64,000 bases of DNA from Trujillonella endophytica (GTDB taxonomy: Bacteria; Actinomycetota; Actinomycetes; Mycobacteriales; Geodermatophilaceae): assembly GCF_900110555.1 (NCBI RefSeq), contig NZ_FOEE01000001.1, positions 62,001-126,000 of the forward strand, read 5' to 3'. The position numbers and the translations under genes were made by a program. The notes under the pieces are model-generated. The model did no database searches. It was not told where the DNA came from and was given only the letters and a program-made list of their open reading frames with translations. Numbering within the stretch: the stretch's first letter is position 1; each line of letters starts with the position of its first letter. This document shows, piece after piece, positions 39,611-53,192 of the stretch.

Positions 39611-39841
39611 GTGACCTCCTGGGAGTACGCCTCGGTCATCACGGCCAACGACGCTCAGTCGCAGCGGGCAGGGGTGAGCGTCAAGCTCCCCGGTGGAGCC
39701 CTCGAACGGCAGGCGGGGGACACGAGCTCGGTGCTCAACCGGCTCGGCGCCGACGGGTGGGAGCTGGTGAGCTACCACTCCAGCGGTGCCGGCACGTGGG
39801 GCTTCGAGCAGTTCTGGCTGAAGCGGCCGTCGGCCACCTGA
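39611..39841 (+). CDS. DUF4177-like small protein
   Basis: A 76-aa protein with the DUF4177 pattern: TSWEYASVI at the start, LNRLGADGWELVSYHSS in the middle and a FWLKR end. This is a short alpha/beta fold of unknown function. GTG 39611 is placed exactly six bases after TACGGT (39599-39604), implying a leaderless transcript. No partner gene; the next gene downstream has its own LexA-controlled promoter. Confidence 0.75.
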   Translation: MTSWEYASVITANDAQSQRAGVSVKLPGGALERQAGDTSSVLNRLGADGWELVSYHSSGAGTWGFEQFWLKRPSAT

Positions 39842-39853
39842 GCCACCCTCCCG

Positions 39854-39869
39854 TCGAACATCCGTTCGA
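39854..39869. promoter_or_regulatory. LexA (SOS) box, perfect actinobacterial consensus
   Basis: TCGAACATCCGTTCGA is a perfect match to the actinobacterial/Gram-positive-type SOS box TCGAAC-N4-GTTCGA. It lies 19 bp upstream of the GTG at 39889 and overlaps where the -35 would be for CACACT (39877-39882), the -10-like hexamer six bases before that start. LexA bound here would block transcription of the downstream gene. Confidence 0.85.
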
Positions 39870-39888
39870 TTCGGGGCACACTGGTGCG

Positions 39889-40254
39889 GTGGACGCGACG
39901 CCGCCGGGCTGGCCCGAGGCCGTGCGCCCGCCGGGCGCTCCGGACTGGGAGCGGACGGCGGTCGCGTGGCTGTTCGACCTCGTGCCCCCGGACTACCGCG
40001 CGCACGAGGTGCTGCGGCGGTACCCGGTGCTGCTCGCCCGCTTCGCCCGCGACCACGTCGCCGCCGGGCTGGAGGCCGCCCGGAGCGGCTGGCGGACCGT
40101 CCGTGTCGAGCTCGCCGACCACCTGCCGGCCGACGCGATGGCGGCCGCCATGACCGCCTACGAACGGGAGGGGGCGCGCCTGGCGGCCGCCGCCCGGGGG
40201 GTGGCGGTGGTCTCGGCGGCCCTGCGCGGCGAGCGGTGGGTGCCGCGGCTGTGA
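39889..40254 (+). CDS. Putative SOS-regulated protein of unknown function
   Basis: A 121-aa soluble, mostly helical protein without recognised domain. Features: PPGWPEAVRPPGAPDWERTA near the start, LFDLVPPDYRAHEVLRRYP (about 30-48), ARDHVAAGLEAARSGWR, and an Ala-rich helix before WVPRL at the C-terminus. GTG 39889 is fixed by CACACT six bases upstream. A perfect LexA box covers the promoter, so it should be induced by DNA damage. It is unlike RecA, LexA, ImuA', ImuB or DnaE2. Single gene; dxs follows 150 bp later with its own leader. Confidence 0.65.
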   Translation: MDATPPGWPEAVRPPGAPDWERTAVAWLFDLVPPDYRAHEVLRRYPVLLARFARDHVAAGLEAARSGWRTVRVELADHLPADAMAAAMTAYEREGARLAAAARGVAVVSAALRGERWVPRL

Positions 40255-53148: not shown

Positions 53149-53192
53149 TCGAATATGTGTTCGATTCTACCGCTAAGGAAGGTTCGGCTCAA
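53149..53192 (-). promoter_or_regulatory. SOS-controlled promoter of the HNH endonuclease gene
   Basis: On the minus strand: -35 TTGAGC (53192-53187), 17-bp spacer, -10 TAGAAT (53169-53164). Immediately downstream, sharing one base with the -10, is TCGAATATGTGTTCGA (53149-53164), a LexA box differing from TCGAAC-N4-GTTCGA at one position. LexA would cover the transcription start. Confidence 0.8.

Follow-up and report, generated by a model that had tools for sequence, protein, structure and literature searches.

The SOS response is controlled by LexA, which represses SOS promoters until RecA filaments on single-stranded DNA trigger its self-cleavage. The function of most actinobacterial LexA targets is unknown. 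The division inhibitors of the SOS response usually differ from lineage to lineage without being related; ChiZ, DivS, SidA and YneA are either membrane proteins or contain LysM. The Geodermatophilaceae, to which Trujillonella endophytica belongs, are known for their radiation tolerance. A second damage-responsive promoter element, the RecA-NDp motif, has been published as tTGTCRgtg-8nt-TannnT (PMC5656591) and is nowadays ascribed to PafBC.

The gene described here lies in a window of 64,000 nucleotides from T. endophytica, and resembles targets of the actinobacterial LexA regulon as described for Mycobacterium and Streptomyces venezuelae (PMC9380542): it has the same box in a promoter-overlapping position, the same regulators are present, and the genome has further sites near recA, lexA, ruvC, dinB and a radical-SAM gene. 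However, this target was not seen among the entries examined in the main-text table of the S. venezuelae study, the sampled orthologues from Streptomyces have no box, and the product family is unannotated. Like SulA, DinI, RecX, YneA, ChiZ and DivS, the gene is small, stands alone and has a LexA box, yet no sequence or fold relation to these proteins was detected, and its product has no membrane or LysM segment. With respect to the RecA-NDp/PafBC regulon (PMC5656591), some of the orthologues that lack the box carry this signature, spaced as published and well placed before the start, whereas the window gene belongs to the box-bearing set and has no such element. Furthermore, the orthologue matches, for which PafBC dependence is predicted, usually comprise TGTCRG plus YANNNT rather than the full 9-mer.

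A LexA box overlaps a probably leaderless promoter

The features of the locus are as follows.

39854..39869, unstranded: LexA (SOS) box TCGAACATCCGTTCGA, 12 of 12 positions matching TCGAAC-N4-GTTCGA, conserved before orthologues
39877..39882, plus strand: -10-like element CACACT, 7 nt past the box, assigned from the sequence and the orthologue offset histogram
39889..40254, plus strand: CDS with GTG start, 121 aa, uncharacterised actinomycete family, predicted helical hairpin

The preliminary description of this DNA had reported a perfect LexA box 19 bp before a leaderless-type start of a 121-aa protein, and both elements of that description hold. TCGAACATCCGTTCGA is the sole perfect match within the window, and the GTG at 39889, 19 bp downstream of the box end, opens a frame of 121 codons that closes at 40254. 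As CACACT stands 6 nt ahead of this GTG and 7 nt past the box, the transcript is probably leaderless, with the GTG at its 5' end, and the box would span about -35 to -20. The earlier placement of the box at -35 is thus correct in that the box overlaps the -35/spacer region, but it does not lie exactly on the -35 hexamer. The offset histogram of box-bearing orthologues shows a -10-like hexamer starting most often 7-10 nt past the box.

A longer in-frame ORF (GTG 39757, 165 aa) was rejected as the gene, because the orthologues align only from VDATPPGWP onward. A separate 76-aa ORF (window 39611-39841), situated between an RNA methyltransferase gene and the box, is 84-97% conserved in Geodermatophilaceae.

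Across the 4.87-Mb genome, TCGAAC-N4-GTTCGA occurs 43 times at no more than one mismatch, versus 3 times for the reversed control pattern. Several of these sites lie near lexA, recA, ruvC, dinB, dnaB, the radical-SAM gene, a gene for an AlkB-like oxygenase and several DUF222/HNH genes. The lexA locus has three near-consensus sites, and the identities of the box-bearing lexA and recA loci were confirmed with Pfam. On the evidence of this gene neighbourhood, the pattern is the LexA motif of this organism, while a subset of the 43 sites, located inside coding frames, probably represents chance matches.

Two further groups of sites were observed. A perfect box, TCGAACGTGCGTTCGA (L006, G000:C21:39060-39075), stands 58 nt before a frame for the replicative helicase DnaB, which suggests that dnaB is under LexA control in this genome. 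In addition, the one-mismatch box TCGAATATGTGTTCGA lies at window positions 53149-53164, just upstream of a minus-strand DUF222/HNH (13E12-type)-like gene; it also precedes at least two other DUF222/HNH-type genes in the genome (L061, L069), with a close variant at L073.

The box is retained before many orthologues

Absence of the box upstream of orthologues had been named in advance as the observation that would count against damage control. Instead, of the 208 distinct regions upstream of orthologues, 104 have a box with no more than two mismatches: 58 boxes are perfect, 37 have one mismatch and 9 have two. Shuffled sequences reach about 0.2% at this threshold. The 58 perfect boxes contain 29 different N4 spacers, and their flanks are mostly 35-55% conserved, while the 12 half-site bases are fixed. 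These varied spacers and weakly conserved flanks indicate that it is the half-sites that are under selection.

Retention differs between families. The box precedes all sampled members of f31 (32/32), which is Streptosporangiaceae-like by its relation to Planotetraspora and Nonomuraea, and of f41 (18/18); it was found in 4/6 members of f48 and in the single member of f56 (1/1). Geodermatophilaceae isolates are mixed, with a box at up to two mismatches in 43 of 65, and a group that includes many Modestobacter has a box one mismatch off consensus that lies 45 bp upstream rather than 19-24. About 40% of the sampled promoters, including those of Streptomyces and several aconitase-linked lineages, have neither the box nor the RecA-NDp signature. 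Damage control is therefore not an absolute requirement of the protein family, which is probably useful beyond acute damage, since the gene persists in Streptomyces and in several further lineages whose promoters have neither element. The Streptomyces-type homologues (f33, L124-L130) are divergent, at 39-46% identity, and differ at the N-terminus (TTRI.PDWP).

A RecA-NDp-type element occupies some box-less promoters

A signature of the RecA-NDp type was found in part of the box-less set. Among 48 non-redundant box-less promoters that could be tested, 13 have TGTCRG, with one mismatch allowed, at a distance of exactly 10 nt from a downstream -10-like hexamer; all other spacings gave 0-2, and shuffles gave a mean of 0.39. 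A broader scan for TGTCRG-N10-YANNNT gave 24 matches in 104 box-less promoters, versus about 1.4 expected (1.4% in shuffles); other spacings gave 1-9 matches, and the box-bearing promoters 5/104. Because the search for the motif followed its being spotted by eye in these very sequences, more weight lies on the spacing and shuffle controls than on the raw count. About sixteen of the 24 matches are well placed relative to the start, and some of the 24 that are too far from it may be chance occurrences. The well-placed matches include orthologues (L162, L039) in which a more upstream GTG is apparently the true start, so that the arrangement becomes CACACT-N6/7-GTG, like that of the window gene. 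As a positive control, the genome's own recA promoter (L071 1553-1648) contains TGTCAG-N10-TAGCGT plus a LexA-type box, and the mycobacterial recA promoter likewise has both elements.

The signature is often located at the position where the box stands in other orthologues, and the two promoter types are interleaved on the protein tree within Geodermatophilaceae and f48. The LexA label needs 12 changes on this tree, a count that derives from few alignment columns and does not separate gain from loss; the RecA-NDp label alone showed no significant clustering on the same few columns. Given these properties of the tree, repeated switching is inferred rather than read from it: control has apparently passed between LexA and PafBC more than once.

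Taken together, damage control of the gene is well supported computationally. The prediction of damage-inducible expression made in the preliminary description gains from the retained boxes and from the other damage signature in some of the remaining promoters, but such control is not universal, as many aconitase- or methyltransferase-linked copies have neither element upstream.

The product is a predicted helical hairpin

The 121-aa protein has a mass of 13.3 kDa with a Met start, contains 16 Arg and no Lys, and has a pI of 8.3 and a GRAVY of -0.13. It had been described as not any known SOS gene, and this is borne out by searches of Pfam, NCBIfam, PADLOC and PDB sequences, none of which gave a family match; PHROGs returned noise-level matches only, and no description of the gene was found in the literature. 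Individual members matched Pfam entries such as SH3_16 and RecX_HTH2 (E 0.009 at best), and matches to PDB profiles reached E 0.095 at best; all of these were discarded as noise.

In the confident AlphaFold2 model, built from 37 sequences (pLDDT 94.6, pTM 0.85), the N-terminus forms an ordered arm (PPGWP...PPG..DWE); the model also has short helices and a pair of long antiparallel ones at residues 46-74 and 81-112. Foldseek gave no match at E <= 0.001 in PDB and BFVD; its top matches, designed binders and RB69 DNA polymerase (E 0.8, prob 0.99), were judged to be generic helical hairpins. Neither a membrane segment nor a LysM domain was found by Pfam, by GRAVY or in the helical model, which has no hydrophobic segment. 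The protein is thus predicted to be a small, soluble, single-domain helical hairpin without a catalytic signature, encoded usually outside DNA-repair operons.

Every sampled member of the Geodermatophilaceae has one copy of the protein, and across the class 152 of 395 genomes encode it. A sample of 296 genomes from the phylum gave 10 matches, all inside the class, and none outside it. In most lineages dxs lies directly downstream, and in many an RNA methyltransferase or aconitase gene lies upstream, while in Streptosporangiaceae the neighbouring genes are unrelated and no dxs was found nearby. The orthologue loci showed no physical clustering with SOS genes, except for DUF222/HNH-type matches in locus L131.

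A 139-aa homologue is encoded on a phage-like IMG/VR contig of 80.8 kb (L232 2989-3408 / L279 9058-9474), among genes for a DnaB-like helicase, RNA ligases, polynucleotide kinase and DNA methyltransferase; a degenerate box with two mismatches, TCGAACATGTGAGCGA, overlaps its GTG start. No further mobile copies of interest were found in phage GenBank and plasmid collections. The apparent restriction of plasmid matches to residues 1-47 arose as an artefact of alignment, and homologues of full length are present.

Possible functions of the protein

The favoured reading of these data is a small soluble protein that modulates replication, recombination or cell division. Within this range, a plausible if tentative assignment is to the modulators of recombination or replication that act on RecA, a polymerase, the clamp or a helicase, in the manner of DinI, RecX, PsiB and the ImuA/ImuB accessory factors. 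SOS control in common with recA, ruvC, dinB and dnaB, the phage homologue amid genes of nucleic acid metabolism, and the Arg-rich composition are all consistent with such a role. Yet no sequence or significant fold similarity links the protein to any of these families, and the RecX_HTH2 match of one member (E 0.013) is both at noise level and at odds with the predicted fold.

Alternatively, once induced through LexA cleavage, the protein might bind a divisome component and delay septation for as long as repair takes, as an SOS checkpoint inhibitor like SulA, ChiZ, DivS, SidA or YneA. The gene is small, stands by itself behind a perfect box and has no fixed operon partner, which would suit such a role, as would the usual lack of relationship among these inhibitors from different lineages. 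However, this function is rather unlikely for a compact globular hairpin so different from the membrane or LysM-containing inhibitors, and a pure checkpoint inhibitor would hardly be expected in lineages that lack damage control, where this gene also occurs.

That the box is a bystander of little physiological effect before a housekeeping gene tied to dxs or aconitase is highly improbable: while the gene does adjoin dxs, aconitase or RNA methyltransferase genes and many copies have no box, the half-sites are fixed amid variable spacers and flanks across at least four families, the box persists in Streptosporangiaceae away from dxs, and a PafBC-type element replaces it at the same spot.

Implications for the actinobacterial damage response

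The gene very likely belongs genuinely to the SOS (LexA) regulon and encodes a protein family that had no annotation before. The box, promoter layout, conservation, fold and alternative element were computed, and the course of repression and induction proposed here follows from established LexA biology. In undamaged cells, LexA would occupy the box over the -35/spacer region of the probably leaderless promoter and block transcription. Upon damage, RecA filaments on single-stranded DNA would provoke LexA self-cleavage, the promoter would open, and the 121-aa protein would be made. In relatives without the box, the RecA-NDp (PafBC-type) element at the same place would instead give damage-induced activation. 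While the DNA is under repair, the product would most likely bind some conserved housekeeping partner, involved in replication, recombination or cell division, and modulate it.

The suggestion that this is an uncharacterised DNA-damage-response factor is supported by the conservation of the box and the lack of a known family match. As several distant actinobacterial families have retained the SOS switch, the gene very probably belongs to their DNA-damage response as a component not characterised so far. It is possible, though somewhat doubtful in its full extent, that this is the first described member of a damage-response family that is confined, as sampled, to Actinomycetes and one phage, and whose promoter has repeatedly switched at the same site between LexA repression and PafBC-type activation with inducibility kept.

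A single-copy, strongly conserved, stand-alone target that Geodermatophilaceae have in common with distant families makes a good candidate for a central step in the damage response, and one that is probably absent from some well-studied genera. Furthermore, the apparent exchange of LexA and PafBC-type control before one gene would allow direct tests of how two competing damage regulators evolve.
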